Shown: positions 5,073 through 21,322 of the stretch, one piece after another
How positions within the stretch are numbered: position 1 is the stretch's first letter
Layout: each line of letters opens with the position of its first letter
Assembly: GCF_000025985.1 (NCBI RefSeq)
Contig: NC_003228.3
Location: 744,001-808,000 of the forward strand
Length of the DNA stretch: 64,000 bases
Direction of reading: 5' to 3'
Source: Bacteroides fragilis NCTC 9343
GTDB lineage: Bacteria; Bacteroidota; Bacteroidia; Bacteroidales; Bacteroidaceae
Notes under the pieces: model-generated
What the model was told of the DNA's origin: nothing
Seen by the model: only the letters and a program-made list of their open reading frames with translations
The model's database searches: none
Position numbers and translations under genes: made by a program

Positions 5073-5088
5073 GTATTTTTTGAGTTTT

Positions 5089-5133: not shown

Positions 5134-5157
5134 TGTTAATGTTAATTATGAGAAAAT

Positions 5158-5496: not shown

Positions 5497-5508
5497 ATTG
5501 TTAAAATA

Positions 5509-5637
5509 TTAGTAAGACGTTGGTTGTTTCTTGACTTTTTCGTGAAGCAGTATTTTTTGCTTTTCGACCTGTTGGGCGGCATGGTATGTCAGGGAAACCA
5601 TGGCAGATATAAACATAACTTTTGTCTTAATCTGCAT
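5509..5637 (-). CDS. Possible small ORF (42 aa) just upstream of the precursor
   Basis: A short reading frame on the reverse strand begins with ATG at 5637 and stops with TAA at 5509, 12 bp before the precursor start. It encodes MQIKTKVMFISAMVSL at its N-terminus, a weak secretion-signal-like segment ending near YHAAQQ, followed by a very basic and polar tail (VEKQKILLHEKVKKQPTSY). It fills most of the otherwise empty 228-bp gap between the GT2 gene and the precursor. It could be a second small peptide, an immunity or leader peptide, or chance. No Shine-Dalgarno or TAnnTTTG promoter was seen in front of it. Conservation of this frame next to homologous precursors would decide. Confidence 0.35.
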   Translation of the reverse strand: MQIKTKVMFISAMVSLTYHAAQQVEKQKILLHEKVKKQPTSY

Positions 5638-5724
5638 TGCAATGTTCTGTTTTTATTAGCAGTGTTTACATGTTTAGTTATTCTTATTTTATTATTTATT
5701 TCCTTATGACGGGAAAACATATTT

Positions 5725-7287
5725 TTAATATTCTTCAATTTTATCCAGTTGATATAGATTTTCGCTATTCAATAAGTAATCATACCCTGACGACATGTCC
5801 TTTTGTTGGTCTTCTTGTATATACCTTTCATATTTTCTAATTCGATCATTTTCTTTCATGGATCCATAGTCTTTAAATAATATATTGCTTTGCCATGTGT
5901 TCGTGAAATACGGAGTCGCTATGAAGTGTAATTTCTTATGGGTGTTTATGTGAGTATGCCCTATAGGTCTGAACATTCGGTAAACTGTGAGGATACCTTT
6001 GTTAGAATTCGGAATATCACCTTTATAACTTTGTTCATCGTTCCATAAATACACACCCCTAAAACTTACCACATGTATCTCTTTATTATTCTCAAATTCT
6101 GAAAAATTGGTAAATCTCTCATCAAATCTTTCGTCAATATCCATAAAACAAAACCATTCGGATTGGAAGAAGGCACTTAAATCGAGTAATATATTTCTAT
6201 TCTCTAAATCGTTGAACCCACTTCTTTTCTTTTTCACTTTTAATATAATTTTGTCATGGATTGCTAGATCCCAAGTTCGATCCGTACTTTCATCATCCAG
6301 CAAAATGATACCGTCAAAATAGTTTGCCATATTTGTTAGAAAACCTTCTATCAGTTTTTCTTCGTTGTACGCTTGGCAGAGGACTATCTTTTTATGCCTT
6401 TTCCGAAATGCGGCGGGGTGTCTGATTTCGAAACCGATAAATTGCTGTAGATATGTATAGCACAAGTCTTTTGCATATTGATTGTCTTGCCAGTCGTAAA
6501 TGACTTTGTTAAATTCACTTCCCCAAATATCTTTGTTAGCAATTGCTTCCGAAGGATAATTCATTTTTCTCCAATCCGAGATGCTATGTTTATTGATACG
6601 TTTAGAGCGTTCGTTGGGATCATAATTTTTTTCCCGATGAATAGTCTTTGCCTCTGGGAGGATGAATTTTTTGATACCAGACATGTCCAACCGTGCACGC
6701 ATATTATTATCTTCTCCACCCCATGTGATGAATGTTTCATCATAACCATGTAATTTGTATAGATGGTTACGTTCTACCATCAAATTACCCCACGGGATAA
6801 AATCCAACTCTTTTATATTATTTTCTGTAAGTTCCTGCTCATAGGGTACATATGCCATCATTGCGAGGATATAGTGCATGGGATATTTCTCTATGGCATC
6901 TCTCATTTGCCATATAATATCAGTGAGGAATTCTACTTCAGGATCTATTTGTAGGATATACTTTTTGGTAGCATGCTTGAGTCCTACATTTAGTACGGAA
7001 GCATGGTTGCGAGGAGCATGTTTTCGTTCATTAATAATTAGCTTCCAATTTATGAATGGATAATTTTGAAGCAGCATTAGAAGTTCTGACTTTTCATCGG
7101 GGTCGTCCAGAACAATGATTACCTCAATACCGTTTCGTTGTAAATAGGGTGCATTATGTGGTAATACTTTTCTGAACTCCGTATATCTTTTATAGAAAGA
7201 CATAACGATACTTACATCGAAGTTATGAATAATATCATTATTTAAATCGATGAGTTTCTTTTCTGTTGTGGGTTTATTTACGTTCAT
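5725..7287 (-). CDS. Double-domain GT2-family glycosyltransferase
   Basis: 520-residue cytoplasmic protein with two glycosyltransferase-A-like halves. The first (about 20-260) begins VSIVMSFYKRYTEF, carries IIVLDDPDEKSELL and QIDPEVEF in place of a canonical DxD, and ends with the galactosyltransferase-type motif TWGGEDNNMRARL. The second (about 300-430) begins VLCQAYNEEKLIEGF and has LLDDESTDRTWDL and FMDIDERFDERF, a GT2 fold with an acidic metal site. There is no signal peptide or membrane segment. It overlaps the upstream gene by 4 bp (ATGA), so the two are translationally coupled. Position directly before the GG-leader precursor suggests the sugar acceptor is the peptide. An alternative is a stray capsule-type transferase, but no other polysaccharide genes are nearby. 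Confidence 0.8.
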   Translation of the reverse strand: MNVNKPTTEKKLIDLNNDIIHNFDVSIVMSFYKRYTEFRKVLPHNAPYLQRNGIEVIIVLDDPDEKSELLMLLQNYPFINWKLIINERKHAPRNHASVLNVGLKHATKKYILQIDPEVEFLTDIIWQMRDAIEKYPMHYILAMMAYVPYEQELTENNIKELDFIPWGNLMVERNHLYKLHGYDETFITWGGEDNNMRARLDMSGIKKFILPEAKTIHREKNYDPNERSKRINKHSISDWRKMNYPSEAIANKDIWGSEFNKVIYDWQDNQYAKDLCYTYLQQFIGFEIRHPAAFRKRHKKIVLCQAYNEEKLIEGFLTNMANYFDGIILLDDESTDRTWDLAIHDKIILKVKKKRSGFNDLENRNILLDLSAFFQSEWFCFMDIDERFDERFTNFSEFENNKEIHVVSFRGVYLWNDEQSYKGDIPNSNKGILTVYRMFRPIGHTHINTHKKLHFIATPYFTNTWQSNILFKDYGSMKENDRIRKYERYIQEDQQKDMSSGYDYLLNSENLYQLDKIEEY

Positions 7288-8537
7288 GCTATCAGTATTT
7301 TTTCATTAAACAGCATTTGGATAAACTCCACAAATATTTTAGGTTCCTTTTTGTATGGACTCATATTTATAGCATCTTTTATTAAGCAACTTCTTTTAAA
7401 AAGGGCTATAATTTCAGCTTCTTCTTTACCAAAACTTGAATGGACTTTGTTGTTGGCTGTATAAGCTAATACAAATTTGGTATCAGAAAATTTAATAAGG
7501 TGAAAAGCATCCGATAACCTAAGGTGAATTTCCATAGGGAACGTATATAATTGTTTGTGGTTGGCTGCTACTTCTAAAATTAAGTCGTTAAGCGATTGCT
7601 GGGTTTGGCGATACTCATTGTCCAACAATTCTTTGTTTTTAATAATAATGCAGTCTATGTTTTTGCTCTTTTCTGTATTTTGTACATATTGAATATCGTT
7701 CATGATCAAATTCAAAGGGATGTATTCGTTTAAGCTTCCCCCTATCCGTCCCTGAAACTTATTAGCGAATTGTTGGCTGAGGTTTTGGGGTGTGATAAGT
7801 CCTCCATATCCTTGCTCTCCAATCACGATACATGGTTTACCTAACATTATTCCTGTGTAAATAGAAATACCATCCCCGATGATTATATCATTTGATAGAA
7901 TTACTTTTTCGATATTCGATTCTTTTACATTGATAAGTGTAATATTAGAATTGAATATAGGGATAAGAGGATCTCCATTATAAAGTATTGTGATTCTATA
8001 GTCTGATAAAATATTTAATAAGTTACTGATATAATAGACCGGTGAATTTTTAAGGTTAGGGTGTGCGATAGCTATTAATAGTTTGGGGCTATTTTTATTT
8101 CTTATTTCTACATTTTTAGTAACGACTGGTATAGAAAAATATGGTAAGACAAACATTTTGTCTTTTTGAAAGAAACTCTCCAAGAGCTGATTGAAGCAAT
8201 CACAAAGTATTATTTTTTCTACTTGTTGGTCTTCACTTAAATATTCGTCTTTTAAATACTCTGTATTTATGAAGTGTATGATTGGGATATTTGATTTTCT
8301 TGCAAATTGACTAATGTGGCTCAAACCTGTTTTGCCATAAGTAAGAATAATCTCTGCTTCTTCTGTTTTTATATGACTTGACGGGGGGATATATAGATAA
8401 TCACTGAGATGATTTTGAGATTTACATATAAGGGTGATATCATTGCTATCATCTTTATTATCCAGAATCTTTAGTATTCTATTACAAAAGTCAACTTGTC
8501 GCTGGTTGGAGACGTCTAGGGAAAAAAGTATTTTCAT
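7284..8537 (-). CDS. GT-B-like glycosyltransferase with PqqD-like C-terminal domain
   Basis: 417-residue protein. Residues about 1-330 have the alternating beta/alpha pattern of GT-B enzymes: MKILFSLDVSNQ, IILTYGKTGLSHISQFARK, IIHFINTEYLKDE, then a second half with KLLIAIAHPNLKNS, ITILYNGDPLI and IIIGDGISIYTGIMLGKPC followed by VIGEQGYGG. Residues about 335-417 (HLRLSDAFHLIKFSDTKFV, then FGKEEAEIIALF, ending MLFNEKILIA) resemble a PqqD-like fold, the RiPP recognition element that binds leader peptides. From memory this recalls the TIGR04157 'glycosyltransferase, GG-Bacteroidales peptide system'. It is the first clear gene of the run and overlaps the GT2 gene by 4 bp. The PqqD-like assignment rests on pattern only and needs a profile search. 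Confidence 0.65.
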   Translation of the reverse strand: MKILFSLDVSNQRQVDFCNRILKILDNKDDSNDITLICKSQNHLSDYLYIPPSSHIKTEEAEIILTYGKTGLSHISQFARKSNIPIIHFINTEYLKDEYLSEDQQVEKIILCDCFNQLLESFFQKDKMFVLPYFSIPVVTKNVEIRNKNSPKLLIAIAHPNLKNSPVYYISNLLNILSDYRITILYNGDPLIPIFNSNITLINVKESNIEKVILSNDIIIGDGISIYTGIMLGKPCIVIGEQGYGGLITPQNLSQQFANKFQGRIGGSLNEYIPLNLIMNDIQYVQNTEKSKNIDCIIIKNKELLDNEYRQTQQSLNDLILEVAANHKQLYTFPMEIHLRLSDAFHLIKFSDTKFVLAYTANNKVHSSFGKEEAEIIALFKRSCLIKDAINMSPYKKEPKIFVEFIQMLFNEKILIA

Positions 8538-9479
8538 AATTAGTAAGGTTTCTTGGTTTTCAGTAATAATAAAATTATTATTTTGTTAATATATGACTTT
8601 TTTTTATATGAACATCCTCCAAAAAGATTTTTTTATTTTTAATTAACTAATTAAAAAAAACGGTATGCAATGCCATTCTTGCTGTTATTGAATAGTGAGA
8701 CGAATAGTATGTACTCTGTTGATATCTGAGTAGTTACGCTTTCTTTTGCTGTATCCCTTCTATTATAAATCAATGCTGTATTTTCGCGTTTGGTGAAGGT
8801 GGCGGTCGCTGACTGGCCTGTTATACTTTCGGAGATAAACGATAAACTCTCTCCGATGGAGCGAACCATATCCGGGGTAATCTGTATACATATGAAAGCC
8901 TCATTATCTTTTTAGTAAAAGAGTGAGGACTTATTGTAACAGCCATCGAATCATCCTCTTGATAAAGTGCGACGGTTCTTTTCTTCTTTGCGGATTACGA
9001 ACTAACCAACGGTATTTGTTTTTGATATTAAACGATTGTATACAAGTATGTTATGATGAATCTCCGTTTGTTTATTCCGGCCCTGGTATGCGGGCTCATG
9101 GGCCTTGGTATACGGGCTCATAAGCCCGGGTGGCGGGGATGGGATGAAGAACGGATCATTTTCGACTAAACAGTAAAGGAAAGCACAATGCTCTAAACAA
9201 TGTATTCAGTTAATAAATACGTTCCTTAGTGTTGCCTATCAGCGTCTTAACGATTGGATGGCACTCAAGTTGACGGGTGGAAGATAGAAGATGCGGGTGG
9301 AAGATAAACAGGCTGAAAATGCGATCTTCCACCGCGTCATTGCATTGATTATTAATGGAGTAAGTGGAAAAAGGTGGAAGACGGAAGATCGAAACGTATT
9401 TTTTGTAGGAGAAGCAGTTGCTCTGCCAAGTGAAGCATTAAAATAGAATAAAGAATATTCTCTGAAAAATAGCAGAGAT
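8538..9479. other. Gene-poor interval of 0.9 kb with repeats and a possible gene remnant
   Basis: No convincing gene lies here. The 100 bp next to the GT-B gene is very AT-rich and must hold its promoter, though I see no clean TAnnTTTG element. On the reverse strand 8651-8911 is an open frame with protein-like composition (around ITPDMVRSIGESLSF and TATFTKREN), but it has no good start codon or recognised family, and may be a decayed fragment. 9079-9122 holds two tandem 22-bp copies, and 9275-9382 holds four copies of GGTGGAAGA in both orientations. Annotated-looking frames at 8923-9123 and 9239-9520 are low complexity and not supported. Confidence 0.5.
9079..9122. repeat. Two tandem 22-bp repeats
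   Basis: Units at 9079-9100 and 9101-9122 share the frame GGCC(C/T)TGGTAT(G/A)CGGGCTCAT and differ at three positions. They are immediately followed by AGCCCGGG, which can pair with part of the second unit's GGGCT. They lie in the gene-poor interval upstream of rsgA's 3' side; no function is evident. Confidence 0.6.
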
Positions 9480-10412
9480 TCAGTATGCCGCACGGTATTT
9501 TCCTTCCTCCTTATCCTCAAGCATACTCAGATAGGAAGTGTAGCGTGATTCGCTGATGTAGTGCTCTTCTACTGCTTTCCGAACAGCACAACCGGGTTCT
9601 TGGCGGTGTGTGCAGTTTCCATATTTACAGTTTGCCGAAGTTTTGAATATTTCGGGGAAGTAGTGACCTATCTCTTCCTCTTCCATATCGAAAGTACCAA
9701 AACCTTTGATTCCCGGAGTGTCGATAATGTATCCGTCTCCCGGTACAGGGAACATTTCGGAGAAAGTGGTGGTGTGCATTCCCTTGTTGTGATAAGCTGA
9801 TATTTCCGCAGTCTTGACTTCCAGCCCCGGAACAAGGGCATTGATGAGGGTTGATTTACCCACTCCCGAATGTCCGGAGAAGAGGGTTACCCGGCCTTTC
9901 AGTTCCTCGCGTATGGCATCGACTCCTTCACCGGTCAGTGCGGATATTTTAAAACAAGGGTAACCTATTTGGGTATAGAGCGTGATGAGGCTGTCCAGAT
10001 AATGCAATTCGTCTTCATCATAAGCATCCACTTTGTTGAAAAGAATCTTCACCGGTACCCGATAGGCTTCTGCCGATGCTAAAAAGCGGTCGATAAAAGT
10101 GGTTGAAGTTTCGGGATAGTTAACAGTCACCACCAGCATACATTGGTCGAGGTTGGCTGCAAGAATATGTGATTGTTTGGAGAGGTTCGATGAACGGCGG
10201 ATGATGTAATTTTTCCGATCTTCTATCTCACTGATAAAGGCTGTTCCTTCCTGATTGAGTATGATTTGTACACGGTCACCTACGGCAACGGGATTTGTAC
10301 TCCGTATGCCTTTCAGCCGAAAATTACCTTTGATCTTACATTCAACCAGCTGCCCGTCATCAGTTTTCACCTGATACCAGCTACCTGTATTCTTTATTAC
10401 TAATCCCTTCAT
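9480..10412 (-). CDS. rsgA: Ribosome small-subunit-dependent GTPase A
   Basis: 310-residue circularly permuted GTPase that acts in late 30S subunit assembly in the cytoplasm. An N-terminal OB fold (about 1-65) is followed by the permuted G domain with [10 protein letters not shown] (G4), SALTGEG (G5), [14 protein letters not shown] (G1), and DTPGIKGFG (G3). The C-terminal zinc motif reads [14 protein letters not shown] with the expected Cys/His ligands. Length is normal for the family. It follows frr on the same strand after a 95-bp gap that contains a strong hairpin, a common neighbour pairing in Bacteroides. Confidence 0.97.
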
Positions 10413-10430
10413 GTTTTATAAGCAGCTAGT

Positions 10431-10501
10431 TACAAGTTACGGGCTATTAAGAAAACTTTGAGGCGTTATACACAGATGTGTATGGTAGCCCGTAACTTGT
10501 A
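10431..10501 (-). promoter_or_regulatory. Perfect 16-bp inverted repeat between frr and rsgA
   Basis: TACAAGTTACGGGCTA at 10431-10446 pairs exactly with TAGCCCGTAACTTGTA at 10486-10501. The 39-nt loop itself contains a small ACACA/TGTGT stem. It begins 6 bp after the frr stop and ends shortly before the rsgA start. Without a T tract it is more likely an mRNA-processing hairpin or partial terminator that reduces rsgA relative to frr. Confidence 0.55.
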
Positions 10502-10507
10502 TTTCAA

Positions 10508-11068
10508 TTATACGGTCATAATTTCTTTGTCCTTTTCAGCCAGCATTTCTTCAATTTTGGCAATGTATTTGTCATGAACCTTCTGCAGTTTAGCTTCTGC
10601 GTTCTTTTGTTCATCTTCAGCCAAACCGTCTTTTACAGCTTTCTTCAGTGCATCGATGCCGTCGCGCCGTGCGTTACGGATACTGACTTTGGCTGTTTCA
10701 CCCTCAGCTTTACATTGTTTGGCGAGTTGCTTACGGCGTTCCTCGGTAAGAGGTGGAATACCGATGCGGATAATTTCACCGTTATTCTCCGGCATAATGC
10801 CGAGATCGGAGTCGATAATGGCTTTTTCAATAACCCGGAACATGCTTTTATCCCAAGGTTTAATCGTGATGCTGCGTGCATCGGGAGTGGTTACGGCAGC
10901 TACGTTGCTGATGGGCACCATGCTTCCGTAAGAGTCTACACGGATACCATCCAGCAAGCGTGTGCTTGCTTTTCCGGCGCGGATGTGTGCCAGTGCTTCT
11001 TCCAGATACATCACTGCCATATCCATCTTCTCTTGTGATTCTTCGATAATCGTTTTTACGTCTACCAT
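10508..11068 (-). CDS. frr: Ribosome recycling factor
   Basis: 186-residue RRF, which with EF-G splits post-termination ribosomes. The sequence is collinear with the family from [16 protein letters not shown] through [19 protein letters not shown], the hinge [15 protein letters not shown] and the C-terminal helix [14 protein letters not shown]. Length is the usual 185-186. It has its own promoter upstream (11114-11144). In many bacteria pyrH lies directly before frr; here they are separated by about 9.5 kb of accessory genes. Confidence 0.98.
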
Positions 11069-11113
11069 CTTATTAAGTATTTATAAAATTGGCACTTTGA
11101 TTCATTTTGAAAA

Positions 11114-11144
11114 CAAAAGTAGATTATTTTTTGATTATCTGCAA
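11114..11144 (-). promoter_or_regulatory. frr promoter (sigma-ABfr type)
   Basis: On the reverse strand TTG is followed by 20 nt and then TACTTTTG (11121-11114), matching the Bacteroides -33/-7 pattern TTTG-N19-21-TAnnTTTG. Transcription would start around 11107, giving a leader of about 40 nt before the frr ATG at 11068. Confidence 0.6.
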
Positions 11145-11154
11145 CTATCTATAG

Positions 11155-11184
11155 AGAGAAATGCGTTGCCTGACGTTTCTCTTT
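11155..11184 (-). terminator. Weak hairpin at end of the chaperone-envelope operon
   Basis: GAGAAA(T)GCG and CGTTTCTC around an 8-nt loop can form a short bulged stem just after the stop of the last operon gene at 11195. The T tract is poor, so this is a tentative terminator. Confidence 0.3.
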
Positions 11185-11194
11185 CTAAATAGTA

Positions 11195-12253
11195 TTATTG
11201 GTAATTATCGCAATAGGTGGTAGACGGGCTGCTGATATAACGTCCGCTTAAGTTACAACTGGAACCACTGAGGTGACTACAATTGGAGCATCTTTTACCG
11301 CCGGATGAAGAAGATGATTTTCCTAAAAGTGAAAGCAGAAAGAGAGCGATTAGTACAATTAGTAAAAGGATGAGGAAATGAGCTACAATTAAGACAGTGG
11401 CTGTTGAACCAATTAAATAAGTTAATGTACAGATACACGCATGTTTCCATCCACCTTTGGGAAGTACTTTATTGAAAATAATACCTGTTTGCACAGATTG
11501 TCCGACAAGAAATCCAATTCCTACCACAGGCAAAAAGCCTACAAAGAAAAAGCCACAAATGATAGCGCCTATGATACAGATGCCCCAAGTATATATTCCC
11601 CATGTCCAATTGAAAGTTGCGTAGGAATTGTATTGCACATCATTCAAGGTATTGAAAAAACACATCCATTGATTAAATACAACTGCACCGAATATAAAGA
11701 AATTAATGATGGTCCATAGCCATCCTATTTTATCGGGAGTGCAAAACCAAATACTATTTGCGCCCATTGAAAACACATAAAATAGTTCTAACAAACAGAC
11801 GGTAATGAATAAACTGAGGTTTATCGTATGTTCGCTGTCTTCTAGCGGAGTACTTTCTCCACGACGCATTCTAAGGATGAATAGCACAATAGAAAGTCCT
11901 AATATGATATAAACTAAAGGGCGGCAATCATAATTTGTTTGTCGAAACCAGTCGCTGAGTGTATTTGTTGGAGCTTTTGCGGGAGGTGTTGGAGTAACAG
12001 GTCGTATGTAGGTCGTACTTACGTATCCATATCCGCCATTGAAGGATACCTTTGCCCATTCTCCATCTATTGATTCTACATTTACGATTCCTCCATGATT
12101 TATTGTTCCGATGACAGGAGCATTTGTGCTTCCATGACTACGTATGTTTAGAAAAGTATTGGCGGTCACTTCATACTTTTCCAAAGCTTGGGTAGAGAGG
12201 ACTATAATGAATAGTCCGATACAAATGAACAGGAATCGTTTGAATGTTTTCAT
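11195..12253 (-). CDS. SH3-domain multi-pass membrane protein with Cys-rich tail
   Basis: 352 residues from MKTFKRFLFICIGL, chosen because it starts a signal peptide and lies 11 bp after the L,D-transpeptidase stop; a longer frame to 12370 would overlap that gene heavily. After the signal (cut near TQALEK) comes a bacterial SH3 domain (about 25-90: VTANTFLNIRS, GEWAKVSFNGGYGYVST), a Pro linker, then about six membrane segments (about 115-315). The tail is Ser-rich and has CSNCSHLSGSSC plus one further Cys, which looks like a small zinc-binding element. The SH3 domain resembles that of the 931-residue protein two genes upstream, pointing to a shared envelope ligand such as peptidoglycan. It is the last gene of the operon. 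No specific function is recognised. Confidence 0.7.
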   Translation of the reverse strand: MKTFKRFLFICIGLFIIVLSTQALEKYEVTANTFLNIRSHGSTNAPVIGTINHGGIVNVESIDGEWAKVSFNGGYGYVSTTYIRPVTPTPPAKAPTNTLSDWFRQTNYDCRPLVYIILGLSIVLFILRMRRGESTPLEDSEHTINLSLFITVCLLELFYVFSMGANSIWFCTPDKIGWLWTIINFFIFGAVVFNQWMCFFNTLNDVQYNSYATFNWTWGIYTWGICIIGAIICGFFFVGFLPVVGIGFLVGQSVQTGIIFNKVLPKGGWKHACICTLTYLIGSTATVLIVAHFLILLLIVLIALFLLSLLGKSSSSSGGKRCSNCSHLSGSSCNLSGRYISSPSTTYCDNYQ

Positions 12254-12264
12254 CAGTTTGTTAT

Positions 12265-12816
12265 TTACTGGGTTTTTATGTCTTTTACAGAGGGCGTGAT
12301 GATAACAGTTGTTGGCACTCGGATTAAAGATACTAATTGCTCTAATTCTGAATTTTTGATTCGAATGCATCCTTCGGTCGCTCGGGTCCCAATAGATAAT
12401 GGGTCGTGGGTGCCATGAATCCCAATTCCTTTATGTCCGGGTGTTTCTAACCGGATGAAATGATTACCGTATGCACCCTCTATTTCACCTTTCCCATCTC
12501 CAAAATCGTGTTTCCATTTAGAAGCATCTTGGATATCGATTATTTTAAAAGTTCCTTCAGGAGTTTTTAAATCTCCTTGTTTTTCCTTGTTGCCATAATT
12601 CTTTCCACAAGCTATGTCGGCAGTGAATAATTCTTGGCCCTTATAGTCTATTAAGCGTAATTTCATTTCATCTTTTGAGATGAGAAGAATGTTCGCATTC
12701 TTAATTTGTGCCATTTGGGCAGTATGGTAGTAGTAGAAAGCTACTGCCATACCGCCTATAGAAAGGATAAATGTTAGATGCGATACAATTAGATACCGTA
12801 TAATTTTCTTTTTCAT
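12265..12816 (-). CDS. L,D-transpeptidase (YkuD) family protein
   Basis: 183 residues from MKKKIIRYLIVSH, which begins a signal anchor at about 5-30; a start seven codons upstream would overlap the preceding gene. The catalytic YkuD domain (about 50-180) shows LRLIDYKGQELFTAD, GDLKTPEGTFKI, and the active-site block IGIHGTHDP ... TRATEGCIRI with the catalytic His and Cys. The residue two before Gly-Cys is Thr instead of the more usual Ser. Such enzymes cross-link peptidoglycan or attach proteins to it in the periplasm. It sits between the 931-residue membrane protein (10 bp) and the SH3 membrane protein (11 bp), inside the Hsp70 operon, which is an unusual context. Confidence 0.85.
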   Translation of the reverse strand: MKKKIIRYLIVSHLTFILSIGGMAVAFYYYHTAQMAQIKNANILLISKDEMKLRLIDYKGQELFTADIACGKNYGNKEKQGDLKTPEGTFKIIDIQDASKWKHDFGDGKGEIEGAYGNHFIRLETPGHKGIGIHGTHDPLSIGTRATEGCIRIKNSELEQLVSLIRVPTTVIITPSVKDIKTQ

Positions 12817-12826
12817 TGTATTATGC

Positions 12827-15622
12827 TTAGTGTACAATTACTTGGCAGGAGAAGATTTTACTTCCCTCGTACCATATCTCGTACTGATAAGTACCTGGAG
12901 AATACACGTCACACTCTGGACTTCCCCAGCTTGTTAAATAAGAAACATTGTTATCAGCTCCGACAGCAGGTGTATACATACCATGTTTGTAAGTGTATCC
13001 GTTCGGCGAGTTCTTGTTGGCAATGAGTACACCATTGGGACGATAGATTTTGGCATACAATGTAATATTTCTGGCCCCGTTTAGACTTGAATAAATAATC
13101 TTTGGTTTCAGGTATTGTAATTTATTTCCGTAAAGCGGCTTCCCATAATCTTCTAAAATAGTCCCTTTATCGTTTGAGTTGGCAAATAACATTGTTCGGA
13201 TTTTGATGGGACACTCAACTGGTTTTGAAGAAACAGTTACAGCCTTTTCTGAATTGCCCTGAATTTGCACTCCGGTTGAATACAATAATTCTCCTTCGGA
13301 CCAGAATTCTATTCGGTAAGTTCCAGAAGTGTACGCATCTCCGGTTGTATTTCCCCAACCGGCTAAATTAATATATCCGGATCTGTTTAGAGTTACTTTT
13401 TGTTCATTAGTATATCCGGAGGGTGATCCTGTTCCAGTCATTAAGTTCCCCTGTGGAGTGATAATTTTATATTTGATGACCACTGAACTCTTCCCCGCAG
13501 GATTTTCATAGAAAATACGTGGAGACAAGTACTGAGTGGTGGTGGGGAGCTGTGTCCCAAATTGAGTAAGAATATTGTAACTTTTATCAGTATTTCCAAA
13601 AAGTGCCTTCGTTATTTTTAGTCCGTTCTCACTCTTTGCTTTTGACGGTTGCTGGTTGGTTGGGAGTTGAGGCGAGCGGCTAACCATAGCATTTGGGGTA
13701 GCATAGATAACTTTATATTTATCTGTTTTCCATGGATAATATCTAACATCTTTTATTTTGGCATTTTCTGTTGTTTGCTCTTGATATATAAAAACGGGAG
13801 TTTCGTCATCTGCAAACGAATAAATAGCCAATACACCTTCATGTGTGGAGCTGTTGGATAAGACAAATGCAAATTCTGTAAACTTCGTATATCCGTTAGC
13901 CAGTCGAGGGTAAAGTACTGCATTAGGTTTGACTTCTATAGGTTGTGCAAACAACTGCCATTGCCCCGTCCCTGTTTTATAGTTGTTTTTCTTTATAAAG
14001 TCTACGAGTGCCAGCCGACATTTTGCTGTCGGTGCTCCTTCCATAGCTTCTTTGCTTCCCCATAAGTTATTCAACAATTCAAAATCAGTTTTACTTAGGG
14101 TATAATTGGTAGATACATATCCCTTTTTCTCATTAGCTTTAATGTATGACCATCCATCTCCTTCTTTTTGGTAAGTGATGAGCTCCGAACCATAGGGCAG
14201 AGATTGGATACGATTATATTCTACATTTGCATTTTTATCGGAACGTTGCAACAAGCTGGATACGTATACATAGGTACGCTCTGCATCCCGATCAATGGTC
14301 ATAGGTTTATACCAATATTGATGGCCGCAAAAGCCTATAATAGCGGCGATAATCAGGAACGACCACAAACCTCCGTGCCCCTTTTTAGGCGAAACTGTAG
14401 ATGTTCGTCGGTTAGATGGAGTTCTTGGAGGAGGTGGCGGCGTTACCCGTGATTGTGTGGGGGGAGTAGAGGTCCGGTATTGTTTGATAGTGAATGTGTA
14501 CGTTGCAATTTGCAGATCATTCTCAAAGAATTCAATAATCCATTGGCCAGCGGAGAATACATTTCCAGACATACTTCCGAAGCCATTCAAGGGATATGCA
14601 GATCGGGAACCTGTGAGAGGGACATTACCATACCACGTATAACCGGACTTGCTGTTGCTGGCTGTCATGAGTGTCCTGTCGGGAGCGTATAATTTGTACC
14701 ATATATCTACACTGCTCCCTCCTCTTAATACTCGATAATCAATTCGAGGCTGTAAATAGCAGCTACGAGTATCGAGCTCGGCCTGGTTCGAAGGAATGGG
14801 ATCACCTTTTTCGTCAGTATTGGCAATTACCAATCCGGTTATTTCAATGGAAGGGGATGTTTGCCGGGGAGGAGTTTGTGGTATTCTTTCCTGAGGGGCC
14901 CTTTCTTGTATCGGGTTTTCGCGGGTATATTTCGTCATGAACTTTTTGAAGTCCTCAAAAGTTTTAGAATCTTTTGTATAATATGTTTTGGCTATTCCAC
15001 GAAAATCTTTGCTCCAGGTAATGATGTTTTTGTTATTGCTATGCAATTTGTCTGATGCGATTAGAATGGAGATATACTGCTCACATTCTTTTCGGGACGT
15101 TTCGTTAAATGTACCGTTTTTCCAGAAATTGGCTAAGAAACGGACAGCATTCCATTCATCTCGGTCCAGTTCATTCTGATTCTCGTATAACTGCGAATAA
15201 GTGCTTACCCATTTTTTTGCATTTTGTTTTAATATGATATTTTGAGATTCACTGTTGACAGGTGTCTGAAGAGGAGCCGAAGAGCGGGGTGCAGAACTCT
15301 GATATAATTCCTTTAATGCATTTTGGAATACTAAAAATGTAGTTTCGTCTTTAGTGTAATACTTCCTGGCGATGGTACGAAACTCTTTACTCCATACAAT
15401 AATTTCTTTATTATTGCTGTGTAATTTATCCGATTGTTCAAGAGTGCTTATCAGGTCCATGCATTCGCTGGTAGCATCCGGATCAAATTTTTTTCGCCAA
15501 TAGTCGGCCAGTGTCTCTATAGCAGTCCATTCTGCTGTAGAGAGTTCTGTTTGTTTGCTTTTAAGAAATCGACAAGCTTCGTTCCACTTGCCGATTTCCA
15601 GTTTTAATAAAGTCTTATCCAT
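12827..15622 (-). CDS. Large modular membrane protein: two helical repeats, three beta-sandwich repeats, SH3 domain
   Basis: 931 residues, no signal peptide, one central membrane segment (about 415-435, GGLWSFLIIAAIIGFCG) preceded by basic residues (SNRRTSTVSPKKGH), predicting N-inside/C-outside. The N-terminal half has two copies of an about 105-residue helical module (LHSNNKEIIVWSKEFR and LHSNNKNIITWSKDFR) and a beta module (about 258-380). After the membrane come an SH3-like domain (about 450-515, LPYGSELITYQKEGDGW) and two more beta modules (about 690-805 and 815-931). The three beta modules share LxxxLFxNTD-like starts, YLxPRI, GYT and a final SxGTYxIEFW pattern. The family is not recognised. 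Neighbours are Hsp70 (27 bp upstream) and an L,D-transpeptidase downstream. Confidence 0.8.
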   Translation of the reverse strand: MDKTLLKLEIGKWNEACRFLKSKQTELSTAEWTAIETLADYWRKKFDPDATSECMDLISTLEQSDKLHSNNKEIIVWSKEFRTIARKYYTKDETTFLVFQNALKELYQSSAPRSSAPLQTPVNSESQNIILKQNAKKWVSTYSQLYENQNELDRDEWNAVRFLANFWKNGTFNETSRKECEQYISILIASDKLHSNNKNIITWSKDFRGIAKTYYTKDSKTFEDFKKFMTKYTRENPIQERAPQERIPQTPPRQTSPSIEITGLVIANTDEKGDPIPSNQAELDTRSCYLQPRIDYRVLRGGSSVDIWYKLYAPDRTLMTASNSKSGYTWYGNVPLTGSRSAYPLNGFGSMSGNVFSAGQWIIEFFENDLQIATYTFTIKQYRTSTPPTQSRVTPPPPPRTPSNRRTSTVSPKKGHGGLWSFLIIAAIIGFCGHQYWYKPMTIDRDAERTYVYVSSLLQRSDKNANVEYNRIQSLPYGSELITYQKEGDGWSYIKANEKKGYVSTNYTLSKTDFELLNNLWGSKEAMEGAPTAKCRLALVDFIKKNNYKTGTGQWQLFAQPIEVKPNAVLYPRLANGYTKFTEFAFVLSNSSTHEGVLAIYSFADDETPVFIYQEQTTENAKIKDVRYYPWKTDKYKVIYATPNAMVSRSPQLPTNQQPSKAKSENGLKITKALFGNTDKSYNILTQFGTQLPTTTQYLSPRIFYENPAGKSSVVIKYKIITPQGNLMTGTGSPSGYTNEQKVTLNRSGYINLAGWGNTTGDAYTSGTYRIEFWSEGELLYSTGVQIQGNSEKAVTVSSKPVECPIKIRTMLFANSNDKGTILEDYGKPLYGNKLQYLKPKIIYSSLNGARNITLYAKIYRPNGVLIANKNSPNGYTYKHGMYTPAVGADNNVSYLTSWGSPECDVYSPGTYQYEIWYEGSKIFSCQVIVH

Positions 15623-15649
15623 TTATAGGGTTCTGCTTTGTTCTGTTTT

Positions 15650-17239
15650 TTACTCTACTGATGCTTTGTCGATGATTGCTTTTGATTTTCTGAGTTCTTC
15701 TTCACATTTTACACCGGTGATTTTGAGATCGAATTCAAGTTTATCATTTTCTACATAAGCTAATCCGTGCAAGATACCTTCCTGGTCAATCTGATATGTA
15801 ACTGAAATCTGGGTACCTTGAGGCCAGTCTTTGCTCAGTTTAAGCGTATGGTCGTCAATTAGTGTGCAGAATCTTTCTTCCACGATACTTTCTGTTTCCA
15901 TATTTGTGAAATCACTTTCAAATACTTTCACAGATACACCTCGTTGGTTAGGAATAGAAGTAGTAAAGGTTTCAATTCGTTTTGTGGGTAACGAACTATT
16001 TGCAAAAATGAGGTTTTGCACCATGCTTTGTCCTTCAATGATTACGTCGGTACCATATGTTTTACTGGTGACATTGACCACTGTGGTGCGATCTCCACGG
16101 AGAGGAGCCGGTTTATCATCACTTTCTCCTTCTTCATAGTCGCGAACTGCTTGTGAATAGGCGGCATTCATAGCATAAATTGCCGCTCCTTTGGCTACAC
16201 ATTCATCCGGGTCGGTTAGTTTGGCATCACAATTGAATTCTTTATCTACCCGTTCCTTTATTTGTGGCATGCGGCTACTGCCTCCCACCAACAGTATTTC
16301 ATCAATATTATTGTAACCTTTTTCTTTGGCAATAGCAATAACCTTCTTGGTGGCATCAATCGTTTCGTCCAGTTTCCTTTCTGTCAGTGAATTGAATAAC
16401 TCACGGCTAATCTCTATACGTGCGGAATTGCCTTCATATTGGTAAGTTGCTTTCGCTGTCTGCTTGGCTGTCAATACTTTTTTCTTGTCTTCTGCAAGTA
16501 ATAACAACTCATATTTTAGGTCTAATCGGTCTTCGAACGAATAAGAAGTGTTATTTTGTTCGTTAAAAGCTGCCAGCATATATTCAGCTAATGCGGTATC
16601 CCAGTCTACTCCTCCTAAATGATGGTCTCCACCTGTGGCTATTACTTTAATGGCACCACCGTTCACGTTAATCAAGGTAACGTCAAATGTTCCGCCTCCG
16701 AGGTCGTATACTAAAACCGTTTTTTTCTGATCAGTCTTTACACCGTAAGAGATCGCGGCAGCCGTAGGCTCATTGATGATAGAAAGTACATTTAAGCCGG
16801 CTATTTCTCCGGCCTGCTTGGTTTGCATACGCTCTTTGGTTCCAAAATAGGCCGGACAAGTGATAACGACATCTTTGATCGGTTCCGGATTATCTCCCAA
16901 ATCGTTGGCATCTTTAACCAGCTTTTTTAAGATGAAAGCCGAAATTTCTGTTGGGTCGTAATGATAGGGAAATTCGTTTGTATTTTTATCGAAACTGTCA
17001 TCTACACCTATATGGCGTTTTATGAATACTGCCGTTTTGGTAGGTTCAGTGGCCAACATACCTTTGGCTTCTTTTCCCACGACAACATGGTCCATATCCT
17101 CAAAATATACAGCGGATGGAGTAGTGGCATCTCCTTCGAAATTGCGGAGAACAATGGCTTGGTCGAATTTATCTACTTGTGCAATGCAACTGTAGGTGGT
17201 ACCCAAATCGATACCATATACACTTCTGGTATTGTCCAT
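15650..17239 (-). CDS. Hsp70-family protein without the C-terminal lid
   Basis: 529-residue DnaK-like ATPase, cytoplasmic. The nucleotide-binding domain (about 1-375) is intact: YGIDLGTTYSCIAQVD, phosphate and ATP motifs NEPTAAAISYG, DLGGGTFDVTLIN and LLVGGSSRMPQI. A linker region (about 375-390) leads to a substrate-binding beta domain (about 390-515; FANSSLPTKRIETFTTS, QRGVSVKVFESDF). The protein ends there, about 110 residues shorter than housekeeping DnaK, so the helical lid is missing. It follows a GrpE-like gene by 39 bp; no J-domain gene is visible. This is a second, specialised chaperone rather than the main dnaK, and its client is probably encoded in the same operon. Confidence 0.92.
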   Translation of the reverse strand: MDNTRSVYGIDLGTTYSCIAQVDKFDQAIVLRNFEGDATTPSAVYFEDMDHVVVGKEAKGMLATEPTKTAVFIKRHIGVDDSFDKNTNEFPYHYDPTEISAFILKKLVKDANDLGDNPEPIKDVVITCPAYFGTKERMQTKQAGEIAGLNVLSIINEPTAAAISYGVKTDQKKTVLVYDLGGGTFDVTLINVNGGAIKVIATGGDHHLGGVDWDTALAEYMLAAFNEQNNTSYSFEDRLDLKYELLLLAEDKKKVLTAKQTAKATYQYEGNSARIEISRELFNSLTERKLDETIDATKKVIAIAKEKGYNNIDEILLVGGSSRMPQIKERVDKEFNCDAKLTDPDECVAKGAAIYAMNAAYSQAVRDYEEGESDDKPAPLRGDRTTVVNVTSKTYGTDVIIEGQSMVQNLIFANSSLPTKRIETFTTSIPNQRGVSVKVFESDFTNMETESIVEERFCTLIDDHTLKLSKDWPQGTQISVTYQIDQEGILHGLAYVENDKLEFDLKITGVKCEEELRKSKAIIDKASVE

Positions 17240-17278
17240 AGTTATTTATCTTTTTAGAATTTTTTTTAGATGAGTTGA

Positions 17279-18127
17279 TTATTCTGATTTTTTATATACA
17301 GTGACTGTTGAGGGTTGAAATATTTTGTTTGTGGTAGTATTTCGGAAGCCTCCGTAATGAAATTCTTTAATAGTGCCGGCTTGTTCCGGGGTATCAGTGA
17401 TCACTGTCCGGATGGCTGTTTGCTCTTTAGGTGAATATGCGCTGCCTATTGTCGGTTCAAAATACTCTAAGTCGTATTCGTCTTCTAGAATATCTTGAAT
17501 ATGCAGTTTACAATTTTCCACTTCTCTCAATAATCTCGTATAAGTTTCAGGGGAACTTTTAGCTTCTGTATTTTCATAAAACTTATAAGTTTTCGTGAGT
17601 CGCTCATGCATTTTTATCATGTTTTTCAGAAGAGGTTTTACGATTTCCGCATGAAGATCCCGGTTATGACTTTGCAGTTCTTCATGAAGATCCTTAATGA
17701 TTTTATCTTTGTAAGAAGAATCTTCCAATAGTTTTTTTAATGCATTTATTTGATCTCCGATTTGAGAAGGGAACGAGTGATCGGGATGCGTCGCAGGCTC
17801 TATGGAGCGTTCATCGTTTGGATTCCTATTCTCCAGGTTCTGCTGCCGTTCTTCAAGTTCTTTTGCTAATTTATCCAACTTTTCAGCACGTAGATTCAAC
17901 TCTTCTTCTTTTTGTTGAAGCTCTTGGATTTTTAATTTCATTTCTTCTTCTTGTTCGGGAGAAAGTTGTTCCTGTTCATTGGGGGAGGATGTCGCCTCAT
18001 CGGTAGCTGGAGAGGGAGTGTGATTGGGCATTCCGGTTGAGATTAACTGAGCAAGATTAGCTTCAAATTGGCTCATTCTTTCCAATAGCTCTTCCATTTT
18101 GTTATTTTTACTTTTGGGCCATTCCAT
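17279..18127 (-). CDS. GrpE-like nucleotide exchange factor with long coiled-coil N-terminus
   Basis: 282 residues. About 50-110 is a highly charged coiled coil (MKLKIQELQQKEEELNLRAE). About 130-215 is helical (KDKIIKDLHEELQSHNRDL, EIVKPLLKNMIKMHERL). The last 70 residues have the GrpE head pattern: YFEPTIGSAYSPKEQTAIRT, then AGTIKEFHYGGFR and FQPSTVTVYKKSE, comparable to the GrpE run of preserved Pro, spacer, glycine turn and C-terminal strand. GrpE drives ADP release from Hsp70, and the next gene encodes an Hsp70, which supports the assignment. ATG codons at 18127 and 18097 are both usable; I use the first. It is the promoter-proximal gene of the operon. The family match is by pattern only. 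Confidence 0.7.
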   Translation of the reverse strand: MEWPKSKNNKMEELLERMSQFEANLAQLISTGMPNHTPSPATDEATSSPNEQEQLSPEQEEEMKLKIQELQQKEEELNLRAEKLDKLAKELEERQQNLENRNPNDERSIEPATHPDHSFPSQIGDQINALKKLLEDSSYKDKIIKDLHEELQSHNRDLHAEIVKPLLKNMIKMHERLTKTYKFYENTEAKSSPETYTRLLREVENCKLHIQDILEDEYDLEYFEPTIGSAYSPKEQTAIRTVITDTPEQAGTIKEFHYGGFRNTTTNKIFQPSTVTVYKKSE

Positions 18128-19204
18128 GTTGTGTGTGTTTATAGATTAATATAATAGATTTTTATTTCTGGTTTTACATAAAGTATGAATACTTTTTATT
18201 AGATCAAATAACGAATAATTGTGTGTTTTTTAATCTTGTCTCGCAAATATATAGTTTGTAGTTGTGAAAATCAAACATATTGCTTTATAAAATTGTTGTA
18301 AAATGATTTTGTACCGGATATCCGGTACAAAATTGAAATCAGTAAAGACTTCTTTAATTTATATTGATGGTTGGTACTGCTTTTAGTGCATTAATTTAAT
18401 ATGAGCTTGATACAATATTAGAATAATTGTAGTTGTCCATCATAGACTAATTTAAAGTTAATGGTGGATCTTTTTTCAAAGAAGGGTAACTATAGCAGTC
18501 AATATCTTCATAATATAATAGTTAAATAAGTATTGACTAGAGTGTTTCTATTTTAGAGATGTTCTTTATTGGTTTATTGTTTATCATCGGTCTTTTCTAG
18601 GTTTATTTAATCGGTTGTGCTTATCATAAAATATTTTCTTTACCGTTAATAATCAGATACAACTTGAATTTGAGAAACGACTTAGTTTAACACTCTCCAT
18701 GAGTTATAACCTTTTAAAGTCTTATGAATCAATGTTTTTTAGTTAGGTATATACTTGGGGAGTGGAATCCACAAGTTAATGTTTGTATATTCACCCAGTA
18801 ACACTTATTTGATGAAAATTGTCGGAGGAGGTAGAATTTATTTCCTCAATTCAAAAAAATAATAAAAATACGTATGAGAAACAGATATGTCAGGTATTTG
18901 TATGTATATTATGGGTAATAATATTTGAAATAAAGAGAATTGTCTAAATAGAATAGAAAGAGGATAACTATAGTTTCCCAATTATTTATTTAGTTGGGAG
19001 CATTACGATGATGATGTACTTTTTCTTGCTACCATTCAGATTCTTAGTAGAAATCATTTGTTAAACAATAGATTTTAGTAACTTTAGCCTCTGAGAGCAT
19101 AGCGGTAATTGCTATTGTTAGATACTATAGATTCAGTACTCATAATTATTTCTCTTGATTATTATATTATTCATAATATTGAACTCACGTTAAATATAGA
19201 TAAA
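18128..19204. other. AT-rich 1.1-kb interval between divergent genes
   Basis: No credible gene was found on either strand. The left edge carries a good promoter for the chaperone operon (18244-18275). The right edge has a near-consensus element for the propeller lipoprotein: TTTG at about 19057-19060, then 18 nt, then TAACTTTA, with the last base off consensus. The middle (about 18300-19050) is AT-rich with many stops and one weak TCCCAA/TTGGGA palindrome near 18975-18998. It may be decayed sequence or a long regulatory spacer. Confidence 0.6.
18244..18275 (-). promoter_or_regulatory. Promoter of the Hsp70/GrpE-like operon
   Basis: Reverse strand TTTG (18275-18272), 20 nt, TATATTTG (18251-18244): a full match to the Bacteroides -33/-7 consensus. 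Predicted start near 18237 gives a leader of about 110 nt before the GrpE-like ATG. No CIRCE-like or heat-shock operator was seen next to it. Confidence 0.65.
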
Positions 19205-20365
19205 ATGAAAAAGATCAATGCGGCTTTGGTAATATCTCTGTTTGTAATGACAGGATGTGGAGGAAATAAACAACTGACAGATGATTGCATCACGGTTGAT
19301 GTTAGTGCGGATTATCCTAAAAAGGAACTGATCCTTCAAGATTTTATGGATGTGGAATACGTTCCGTTGGAAACTACTGACGATTTTATAACTCAAGGTA
19401 TTGTGAAAGCTACCGGCAAGAAAATTCTGTTGGTTGCAAACAGGATTATGGATGGTAATATTTTTGTGTTTGACAGGGCTACTGGTAAAGGGGTACGGAA
19501 GATTAACCGTTTGGGACAAAGTGGTGAAGAATATTCGCATATTACGTCTATTGTTCTGGATGAAGATAATAACGAAATGTTTGTTGTAGATTATCCTGCA
19601 AGGAAAATATTGGTATATGACTTATATGGAGAGTTCAATAGAAGTCTCCCATTTCCAGATACCTGCTATTATGAGTTTTTATCGGACTATGACCGGGATC
19701 ATCTGATTGGTTATAAAAGTTATTTGCCATTGATAGAAACCGACGAATCATGCCATGTACTTATTTCCAAGAAAGACGGAAGTGTTACACGAAAAATTCA
19801 AATTCCTTTCAAAGAACTCGAGACACCGGTTGTGACGAAAGATGAGGCGATAGTGACTCCAGGTTTTTTTCTGATAACCCCGCATGATGGTAATTGTCTG
19901 CTGACGAAAACATCATCTGACACAGTATACAATTACTTACCGGATGGCACTCTCAGTCCATTTATTGTACGGACTCCTTCCATTCATTCTATGGATCCTA
20001 AAGTATTTCTTTTTCCGACTATTATCACTGATCGGTATTATTTTATGCAAACTCTTGATAAGAAGTTTAATTTTGAAAAGGGGAGAGGTTTCCCGACCAA
20101 TGATTTAGTGTATGATAAACAGGAAAAAGCAATATTTCAATATACCGTATATAATGATGACTTTTCTAATAAACACCGGGTTGCATTGGGACAGCAACCC
20201 GAAAAATCTGTAGATGAAGAAATTGTAACCTGTCGTGCTTTAAATGCTTCAGACCTTGTCGAGGCAAACGAAAAAGGAGAACTGAAAGGTAAGCTAAAAG
20301 AAATTGCTGCGGGACTGAATGAAGAATCGAATTCGGTGATTATGTTGATAAAACGCAAGAAATAA
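19205..20365 (+). CDS. Six-bladed beta-propeller lipoprotein
   Basis: 386 residues from MKKINAALVISLFVMTGCGG, chosen because it is a lipoprotein signal with the lipobox Cys at residue 17; the frame is open 32 codons further upstream but those lack a signal. The mature part has the repeated strand pattern of the Bacteroides 6-bladed beta-propeller (DUF5128-like) family: FMDVEYVPLETTDDF, IFVFDRATGKGVRKINR, ITSIVLDEDNNEMFVVD, KILVYDLYGEFNRS. These surface or periplasmic lipoproteins are common in Bacteroides and mostly of unknown ligand. It is transcribed away from the chaperone operon, so a functional link is doubtful. Confidence 0.8.
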   Translation: MKKINAALVISLFVMTGCGGNKQLTDDCITVDVSADYPKKELILQDFMDVEYVPLETTDDFITQGIVKATGKKILLVANRIMDGNIFVFDRATGKGVRKINRLGQSGEEYSHITSIVLDEDNNEMFVVDYPARKILVYDLYGEFNRSLPFPDTCYYEFLSDYDRDHLIGYKSYLPLIETDESCHVLISKKDGSVTRKIQIPFKELETPVVTKDEAIVTPGFFLITPHDGNCLLTKTSSDTVYNYLPDGTLSPFIVRTPSIHSMDPKVFLFPTIITDRYYFMQTLDKKFNFEKGRGFPTNDLVYDKQEKAIFQYTVYNDDFSNKHRVALGQQPEKSVDEEIVTCRALNASDLVEANEKGELKGKLKEIAAGLNEESNSVIMLIKRKK

Positions 20366-20611: not shown

Positions 20612-21322
20612 TTAATTGTGTACCAATGTACCGATTTCTTCTCCGGTAATCACTTTTTTCAGGTTGCCTACTGTATCCATATCGAATACTACGATCGGCA
20701 GATTATTCTCCTTACACATACAAGTAGCTGTCAAGTCCATCACTTTCAGTCCTCGTTTCAGCACTTCATCGTAAGTGATGTCGTGGAACTTGGTTGCCGT
20801 AGGATCTTTCTCCGGGTCGGCAGTATAGATACCGTCTACGCGAGTACCTTTCAACATGACGTCTGCTTCTATTTCGATACCGCGAAGCGATGAGCCGGTG
20901 TCGGTAGTGAAGAACGGATTCCCGGTTCCTGCCGACATGATGACGATTTCGCCATTTTCCATGCATTCAATAGCTTTCCATTTACTGTAGAATTCACCGA
21001 TAGGTTCCATGCGTACGGCTGTAAGTACACGTGCTTTCACACCGGCCGCAACTAATGCCGAACTTAAGGCAAGGCTGTTAATTACTGTGGCCAGCATACC
21101 CATTTGGTCACCTTTTACCCGATCGAAACCTTTATTGGCTCCACTCAGTCCACGGAAGATGTTACCACCACCGATAACGATGCCGATTTGTACGCCTTGT
21201 TCATGAATCTCTTTGATTTGTGCGGCATATTCGGCCAATCGCTTTTCATCGATGCCGTATTGCTTTTCTCCCATCAGGCTCTCACCGCTGAGCTTCAACA
21301 GGACTCTTTTGTATTTTGCCAT
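20612..21322 (-). CDS. pyrH: UMP kinase
   Basis: 236-residue cytoplasmic enzyme phosphorylating UMP to UDP in pyrimidine synthesis. Amino-acid-kinase family motifs are present: [22 protein letters not shown], the acceptor site [31 protein letters not shown] and [16 protein letters not shown]. Length is normal. A TATCTTTG -7 element lies at 21359-21352 on the reverse strand, between this gene and the MATE gene. frr, which often follows pyrH directly, is about 9.5 kb away. Confidence 0.98.

Follow-up and report, generated by a model that had tools for sequence, protein, structure and literature searches.

GTPase systems with GAP1-N2, as described in the sections of Kaur et al. 2020 (PMC7159879) devoted to them, follow three non-overlapping themes, one with tubulin, one with Hsp70 and GrpE, and one with a kinase, PP2C and vWA, and some have SH3 or beta-sandwich domains beyond a transmembrane (TM) helix. 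In E. coli, the second, divergent Hsp70 HscC is thought to act with membrane-anchored J-proteins (DjlB/DjlC), according to the passages on it in PMC8215388. Here, we analyze a five-gene operon in a 64,000-nucleotide stretch of Bacteroides fragilis NCTC 9343 (positions 744001-808000 of NC_003228.3; the window). All five genes lie on the minus strand at 11195-18127 and encode, from 5' to 3', a GrpE-like protein, an Hsp70, a 931-amino-acid (aa) protein (p931), a YkuD-fold protein, and an SH3 multi-pass membrane protein (SH3TM). A first-pass annotation had reported five tightly spaced genes here, and gaps of 39, 27, 10, and 11 base pairs (bp), computed from the coordinates, confirm this. Very probably, the five genes constitute one functional unit. 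As to its role, we give even chances to an inner-membrane module that senses and remodels the cell wall and is read out by a dedicated J-independent Hsp70.

Like GAP1-N2 systems, the operon encodes an Hsp70 with GrpE and TM proteins whose SH3 or beta-sandwich domains are extracytoplasmic. In p931, an SH3 domain and an unannotated domain, U, make up a region termed SH3u, and at other loci SH3u occurs with the tubulin and kinase-PP2C-vWA themes. Unlike GAP1-N2 systems, the operon has YkuD, SH3TM, U, and a five-helix repeat at the p931 N-terminus, termed the A-repeat. Pfam searches with the five window proteins (E <=1) returned no GAP1-N2, no TRAFAC GTPase or DO-GTPase, and no DnaJ-domain match either. 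Going by predicted domains, the operon resembles a GAP1-N2 system in its parts list but falls outside the definition of one. Kaur et al. 2020 (PMC7159879) do not use the word YkuD in their main text; theirs was the only paper that looked pertinent in searches of open-licence PMC papers, and these searches gave no earlier account of the operon. The initial view that this was not a known system has to be qualified, since the Hsp70-GrpE theme already appears in the relevant section of that paper. What goes beyond the first-pass annotation is an envelope head that stays the same while the nucleotide-driven machines inside are exchanged, and an Hsp70 that appears to be J-independent. A GAP1-N2-type system was observed in the same family (L008 in genome G128, 3611-17656), in a phylum not among the main homes named in section 29 of PMC7159879. 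DO-GTPase2 (32.2 bits, cut-off 27) and GAP1-N2 (24.1 bits, cut-off 24) are encoded there together with GrpE (43.8 bits), three Hsp70s, a DA1-like peptidase (36.5 bits), and a 962-aa protein in which a stretch resembles a zinc ribbon but scores below the cut-off.

The Hsp70 of the operon is comparable to HscC as a second, divergent Hsp70 with a putative tie to the inner membrane; HscC, as portrayed in the part of PMC8215388 concerned, uses J-proteins, whereas the operon has neither a J-protein nor the J-contact arginine and brings a dedicated GrpE-like factor. The fourth gene product shares with YkuD L,D-transpeptidases (PF03734) the catalytic domain, the His and Cys motif, and a membrane anchor, but differs from them in being genetically tied to SH3u. 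Transmembrane Ser/Thr kinases of the PknB type carry a wall-binding ectodomain. Such kinases, with local examples in L109-L111, resemble the module in combining a cytosolic output, a membrane passage, and an SH3u-like outer part; in the window, however, the output would be an Hsp70-GrpE pair acting in trans.

As read from gene content, the envelope half of the module (SH3u, often with YkuD) is constant and the cytosolic half is exchanged. GrpE and Hsp70 are the inner partners in the window and at L033, L034-L036, and L181; L034-L036 have the same five-gene order at another site, beside a guaA-like gene, with an Hsp70 just 38-39% identical. A kinase, vWA, and PP2C join Hsp70 at L037 and L115/L180, where GrpE (35.0 bits), another vWA, and a peptidase of the DA1-like kind are present in addition at L115/L180. 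At L179, from a genome of the same phylum and outside the order (G748), the inner partner is Tubulin_2 (a 55-residue match of 37 bits; cut-off 27). Hsp70 is absent from L038, L040, L098, L099, L113, and L114, whose N-termini contain zinc-finger-like stretches below Pfam cut-offs, and from L041, where several hydrophobic segments were seen by eye. The database protein P0020 is a kinase fused to a B domain (an Ig-like beta-sandwich), a TM segment, SH3u, and two B domains, and Ser/Thr kinases are fused to weaker SH3u matches in L109 (203.8 bits), L110 (203.6 bits), and L111 (192 bits), with FHA-trypsin adjoining L110 and PP2C adjoining L111. That a like sensor head is fused to, or located beside, kinases and a tubulin-like protein is the strongest argument for Hsp70 as an output device.

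Several of these regions hold further genes. At L179 (2019-10113), the Tubulin_2 protein, a 1184-aa protein without a Pfam match, and a 377-aa protein immediately precede SH3u and YkuD. In L180 (G722, 5109-17298), the DA1-like peptidase gene, also seen in L008, lies upstream of the kinase-vWA-PP2C-Hsp70-SH3u cluster, and further kinase-, PP2C-, and membrane-protein-like genes upstream were recognized by eye. L046 (G284, 2523-10289) clusters a distant Hsp70-like protein (498 aa) with two small B-domain proteins, and L043 (G245, 7526-13978) combines two small genes with genes for an 895-aa protein that has a B-like domain and for an Hsp70-like protein of 830 aa, extended considerably at its C-terminus.

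Searches with the SH3+U profile (profile A2) found SH3u in 19 of 158 Bacteroides genomes (E 1e-10 or better), in 26 of 393 genomes sampled from the order (E 0.001; 14 of the matches extend over U and the others are chiefly to SH3), and in 2 of 395 sampled from the phylum (E 1e-5), the window genome included. Fourteen of the Bacteroides genomes have a member of the Hsp70 clade (at E 1e-80 or better), 12 of them together with SH3u, and 13 have a close YkuD (at least 60% identity), every one with SH3u; a further YkuD match, in G201 (41% identity), is without SH3u. Fisher p values against SH3u, which ignore the relatedness of the genomes, are 7e-15 for YkuD and 1e-11 for Hsp70. YkuD thus co-varies with the SH3u domain and not with Hsp70.

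Adding G481 and G595 from the order search and G748 from the phylum search to the 19 Bacteroides genomes gives 22 genomes with strong SH3u matches. YkuD lies within one gene of SH3u in 16 of them (G000, G214, G683, G723, G255, G209, G240, G217, G689, G238, G694, G279, G252 with interrupted copies, G481 with one gene between, G595, and G748) and Hsp70 in the SH3u cluster in 12 (G000, G214, G683, G723, G235, G728, G255, G209, G240, G274, G722, and G726). Both are near SH3u in 7/22 and neither in one, a fragment (G288); full-length SH3TM occurs in 9/22, always with Hsp70. The first-pass annotation had treated co-occurrence elsewhere as the touchstone of its proposal that a dedicated Hsp70/GrpE pair is joined to a wall-facing apparatus; such co-occurrence was found within the genus, and the recurring linkage supports the proposal. 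In G252, the SH3u loci (L039 and L047) are split or stop-interrupted and one adjoins a YkuD copy with a stop; the SH3u module is decaying in this genome.

The Hsp70 of the operon (Pfam HSP70, 335 bits) has 529 aa compared with 639 aa in DnaK of the same genome and no alignable lid, in agreement with the annotation, and members of its clade in the genus (490-543 aa) likewise show no alignable helical lid. Residues of the ATPase site (equivalents of D8, K70, E171, D194, T199, and D201) are all present in 14/14 genus Hsp70s; in the nearest database relatives (8000 candidates, clustered at 90%, were scored and 6294 reached E 1e-60; the best 120 of these were compared), five of them occur in 120/120 and D8 in 118/120 (2 gaps). 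At the position of DnaK R167, arginine occurs in 0/14 genus members, which have S seven times, A six times, and D once, and in 0/120 database relatives, where A is the commonest residue (90), followed by G (17) and S (13). Since the 120 relatives are one subfamily, this reflects one or few losses, not 120 events. The arginine is kept in DnaK of the same genome and in 5/5 aligned PDB Hsp70s; in the GTPase-linked cluster L008, two of the three Hsp70s keep it and one has Ser. The linker aspartate is Asn in 116/120 database relatives and in 8/14 genus members. The portions of PMC8215388 and PMC7289447 on DnaK R167 report that this residue contacts the aspartate of the J-domain HPD motif; when DnaK is at rest, it is paired with aspartates of the linker and the substrate-binding domain (SBD). 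Judging from the alignments, loss of the J-contact arginine and of the lid fits the missing J-protein, and because the arginine is lost and the operon is without a J-protein, control of this Hsp70 by something other than a J-domain is likely. With lid and J-contact arginine absent and the ATPase residues intact, p931 would be the likeliest factor to set whether it is in the ATP or the ADP state.

The annotation had suggested that the N-terminal modules of p931 may stand in for a J-protein, and the loss of the J-contact arginine, together with the distribution of the A-repeat, supports this idea. An A-repeat profile matched 8/158 Bacteroides genomes, all eight carrying the Hsp70 clade, and an A-repeat gene directly follows the Hsp70 gene in the window and at L033, L044, L045, L112, L116, L118, and L119. 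By its genomic company, the A-repeat is the best candidate for non-J control of Hsp70. The possibility of a true J-domain is unsupported by any profile and was kept just as a lead, on account of one turn: eight A or A-like pieces had no DnaJ match in Pfam at E <=10, a search in which HMMER filters drop most weak matches, and the A5 profile gave no DnaJ match among PDB sequences. The sequence of this turn of the A-repeat is HSN in p931, HPAD in G218, and HPGD in G205, a likeness to HPD that may be due to chance.

An A-like domain shared by all Hsp70 partners was rejected. With the core A profile, the best of the 105 shuffles listed reached 16.4 bits and nine control stretches (kinases, zinc-finger-like, GrpE, frr, part of a Sel1 protein, and others) up to 13.9. 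L117 (32.1), L115 (20.3 and 18.1), and, slightly, L037 (18.4) lie above the shuffles; L034 (12.0 and 16.5) and P0021 (15.7) are below or tied with the best one. A second A profile, for which no shuffles were run, gave 22.2 bits for L034 and up to 17.1 for controls.

In the structure model of p931, computed with the window protein, L007, and six of nine database relatives (P0020, P0021, and P0024 were omitted for their different N-termini), the putative membrane passage forms two helices (421-437 and 439-446; predicted local distance difference test [pLDDT] mostly <50), and a hydropathy scan of p931 found no segment over its threshold. Pfam SH3_3 scores 20.6 bits in p931, below the cut-off of 27. 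TonB_C domains terminate the SH3u relatives L038, L113, and P0018, which is consistent with a periplasmic C-terminus of p931. A fold search with the p931 model listed no relative of U or A; it mostly tested SH3 and B, and U and A barely.

Pfam annotation of YkuD is clear (PF03734, 66.2 bits versus a cut-off of 23.4), and its HGT and EGCIR motifs are present in 14/14 aligned sequences. SH3_3 reaches 42.8 bits in SH3TM (cut-off 27); the SH3TM profile was built from four rows, one of them out of frame, and B. fragilis-type counterparts score 342-345 bits. The GrpE-like protein, whose failure against GrpE profiles the annotation had regarded as fatal, passes Pfam GrpE narrowly (27.1 bits, cut-off 25.8); its counterparts in L034 (29.7), L115 (35.0), L117 (26.9), and L008 (43.8) pass too, but the 286-aa protein of L043 does not. 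The low-confidence model of the GrpE-like protein contains helices 156-186 and 193-218 followed by five strands (predicted template modelling score 0.29). A six-frame family search of its own genome listed canonical GrpE only. The protein diverges fast, and few relatives are found with its own sequence.

In our preferred reading, p931 would be a receptor-like tether in the inner membrane, whose periplasmic SH3u and two Ig-like domains would bind or probe peptidoglycan. YkuD, anchored beside it, would make or break L,D-type peptide links at the same place. On the cytosolic side, the A-repeats, perhaps with B1, would hold Hsp70 in place of a J-protein, such that a wall state sensed by SH3u would change the A-repeats and thereby set the nucleotide state of Hsp70, and the dedicated GrpE-like factor would reset its ATP/ADP state. 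Instead of folding proteins in general, Hsp70 would thus serve as a nucleotide switch or assembly factor, a position that would be filled in relatives by a tubulin-like protein or a Ser/Thr kinase. Gene content, conservation, co-occurrence, the exchanged inner half, and the lost J-contact residue are observed; topology, wall binding, the contact between Hsp70 and the A-repeats, the direction of signalling, and the YkuD substrate are inferred in this picture.

A number of observations weigh against it. Two Hsp70-clade genomes (G205 and G218) have A-repeats without SH3u; their A-repeat proteins adjoin Hsp70 and have MORN repeats (by Pfam for G218) and a different C-terminus; MORN repeats at L044 were confirmed. 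The transpeptidase, counted as a part of the apparatus by the annotation, recurs with SH3u but is not constant: it is missing in 5/12 Hsp70 loci (G235, G728, G274, G722, and G726), so wall chemistry is not required for Hsp70. Near-identical groups (G000-G214-G683-G723, G255-G209-G240, and G235-G728) reduce the 22 genomes to far fewer independent cases, and several of the 22 are incomplete (71-90%). Twelve weaker SH3u loci, of 14 taken from the order search, have no YkuD (by profile) or Hsp70 nearby in the 3-16 kb viewed, the sole Hsp70 row being at chance level (L108, 12.3 bits). The A-repeat has no J-domain match, and its link is weak in L034, L115, L117, L037, and P0021, with one convincing piece out of seven (L117, 69.6%). 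The linker aspartate is lost in just 8/14 genus Hsp70s. Finally, the Pfam match of the GrpE-like protein is marginal, its predicted structure is poor (pLDDT 53.6), and by its own sequence it is rare, with matches in 2/201 family genomes (E 0.001), at four loci in genome contigs, and in 15 database proteins; neither its homologue at L033 nor the 345-aa L037 protein attains the Pfam cut-off.

The genomic site bears on a possible, if doubtful, alternative, an NTP-dependent conflict system without a GTPase, in which p931 or the envelope proteins would detect a surface attack and Hsp70 assembly would trigger an effector. The operon is flanked by frr, with rsgA behind it, and pyrH. In 30 Bacteroides genomes (completeness at least 95%, 1.5 kb viewed), pyrH and frr are at most 270 bp apart in 15 and about 1-1.4 kb apart in 5; in the other 10, two of which carry the operon, pyrH is not within 1.5 kb of frr. 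As the pair is tight in half of the genomes, the operon is an insertion, and by this survey the site takes other inserts, too. Compared with B. fragilis Q1F2 (L004) and S82 (L006), synonymous divergence (dS) is 0.04-0.09 for GrpE/Hsp70/p931 and 0.19-0.25 for frr and rsgA; against L005, the contrast is kept for rsgA (0.19), not for frr (0.008). Because operon dS is below that of frr and rsgA in L004 and L006, the data point to exchange of the operon after its flanking genes had diverged. Nonsynonymous-to-synonymous ratios (omega) against L004, L005, and L006 of 0-0.05 (GrpE-like), 0-0.02 (Hsp70), 0.13-0.16 (p931), 0.15-0.23 (YkuD), and 0.25-0.34 (SH3TM) indicate that purifying selection acts on all five genes. 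Insertion and apparent exchange would suit a conflict system, as would the occurrence of all three GAP1-N2 themes, as set out in the sections of PMC7159879 on them, with SH3u, and the union of GrpE, three Hsp70s, DO-GTPase2, and GAP1-N2 in L008. However, neither GAP1 nor a DO-GTPase is among the five proteins, and a recognizable effector is absent. PADLOC (five proteins, E <=0.1) returned as its sole rows three weak JetC (MukB-like) matches, all from the GrpE-like protein and probably due to its coiled coil; no copy of p931 was found in phage, plasmid, or IMG/VR collections, and a plasmid search found no match to the operon DNA.

The exchange of inner partners also invites the unlikely extension that a fixed SH3u head, often with YkuD, is fitted with three nucleotide-driven machines: a switch made of Hsp70 and GrpE, a set of kinase and phosphatase, or a polymer of the tubulin-like protein. 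Free of J-domains and exchangeable as the output of a transmembrane wall receptor, Hsp70 would then not fold proteins but steer the cross-linking of the wall, its actin fold serving for assembly or switching. We regard as improbable that Hsp70 is a membrane-localized chaperone like HscC-DjlB/C, helping particular membrane proteins to fold or insert, with p931 as tether and YkuD and SH3TM as clients or bystanders. Its SBD-beta aligns with that of DnaK, so client binding is possible, and a membrane-anchored J-protein partnership has been considered for HscC in the pertinent passages of PMC8215388; yet lid and J-contact arginine are lost throughout the clade, and this explanation leaves the large periplasmic SH3u/B part, which also pairs with kinases and the tubulin-like protein, without a role. 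Ordinary co-transcription, a duplicated Hsp70 beside cell wall genes without a common function, is disfavoured as very improbable, since the five-gene order recurs at L034-L036 with a distantly similar Hsp70 and since 13/13 close YkuD and 12/14 Hsp70 fall in SH3u genomes, even if the single families are common and YkuD is optional.

Features of the operon and its surroundings are compiled in Table 1. The annotation had posited one clear promoter. A string fitting what we take to be the Bacteroides-type consensus, TTTG-N20-TATATTTG, does stand at the right position, 116 bp before the first ATG, but it has 4 matches in the window versus 1.19 expected and 5/100 shuffles reach 4, making it weak evidence for a promoter. 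Behind rsgA lies a gene for a 417-aa protein (7284-8537, minus strand), the C-terminal part of which resembles, by eye, a small winged or PqqD-like domain.

Table 1. Coordinates of features in and around the operon (window positions)
Feature	Position	Strand	Basis or remark
Promoter-like string TTTG-N20-TATATTTG	18244-18275	-	position right, statistics weak
GrpE-like protein, 282 aa; coiled coil at N-terminus, GrpE region at C-terminus (residues 125-278)	17279-18127	-	Pfam GrpE
Hsp70, 529 aa; ATPase residues intact, lid absent, J-contact Arg to Ser, linker Asp to Asn	15650-17239	-	Pfam and alignments
p931, 931 aa, putative single-pass inner-membrane protein, N-terminus inside	12827-15622	-	inference
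A1, first five-helix A-repeat (residues 1-112), predicted cytosolic	15287-15622	-	model and profiles
A2, second A-repeat (residues 129-233), predicted cytosolic	14924-15238	-	model and profiles
B1, Ig-like beta-sandwich (residues 258-382), predicted cytosolic copy	14477-14851	-	model
Putative TM helix region (about residues 421-446)	14285-14362	-	position, flanking charges, clearer TM in relatives, e.g., P0017
Bacterial SH3 domain (residues 448-510), predicted periplasmic	14093-14281	-	
U, unannotated alpha/beta domain after SH3 (residues 511-652)	13667-14092	-	SH3+U = SH3u
B2, Ig-like beta-sandwich (residues 668-788), predicted periplasmic	13259-13621	-	model
B3, Ig-like beta-sandwich (residues 804-931), predicted periplasmic	12830-13213	-	model
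YkuD-fold L,D-transpeptidase-like protein, 183 aa from ATG; N-terminal membrane anchor, catalytic His and Cys	12265-12816	-	Pfam YkuD
SH3TM, SH3 multi-pass membrane protein, 352 aa from MKTFKR; C-terminal Cys-rich tail	11195-12253	-	Pfam SH3_3
frr	10508-11068		flanks operon, rsgA behind it; name from reading of sequence
Lipoprotein-like gene, divergent	19109-20365		between operon and pyrH; name from reading of sequence
pyrH	20612-21322		flanks operon on other side; name from reading of sequence

Our analysis defines two unannotated domains, the putative sensor domain U and the Hsp70-linked A-repeat, and shows one and the same kind of envelope head with the Hsp70, kinase, and tubulin themes that have been proposed for conflict systems of bacteria. 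If the proposed wall-sensing and remodelling module with its Hsp70 readout is real, a large Hsp70 subfamily of gut Bacteroidales would break the J-protein rule and be controlled by a membrane receptor. The condition of the cell wall would then reach a chaperone machine in the cytosol by a direct physical route, suggesting a hitherto undescribed coupling between chaperones and the bacterial wall.

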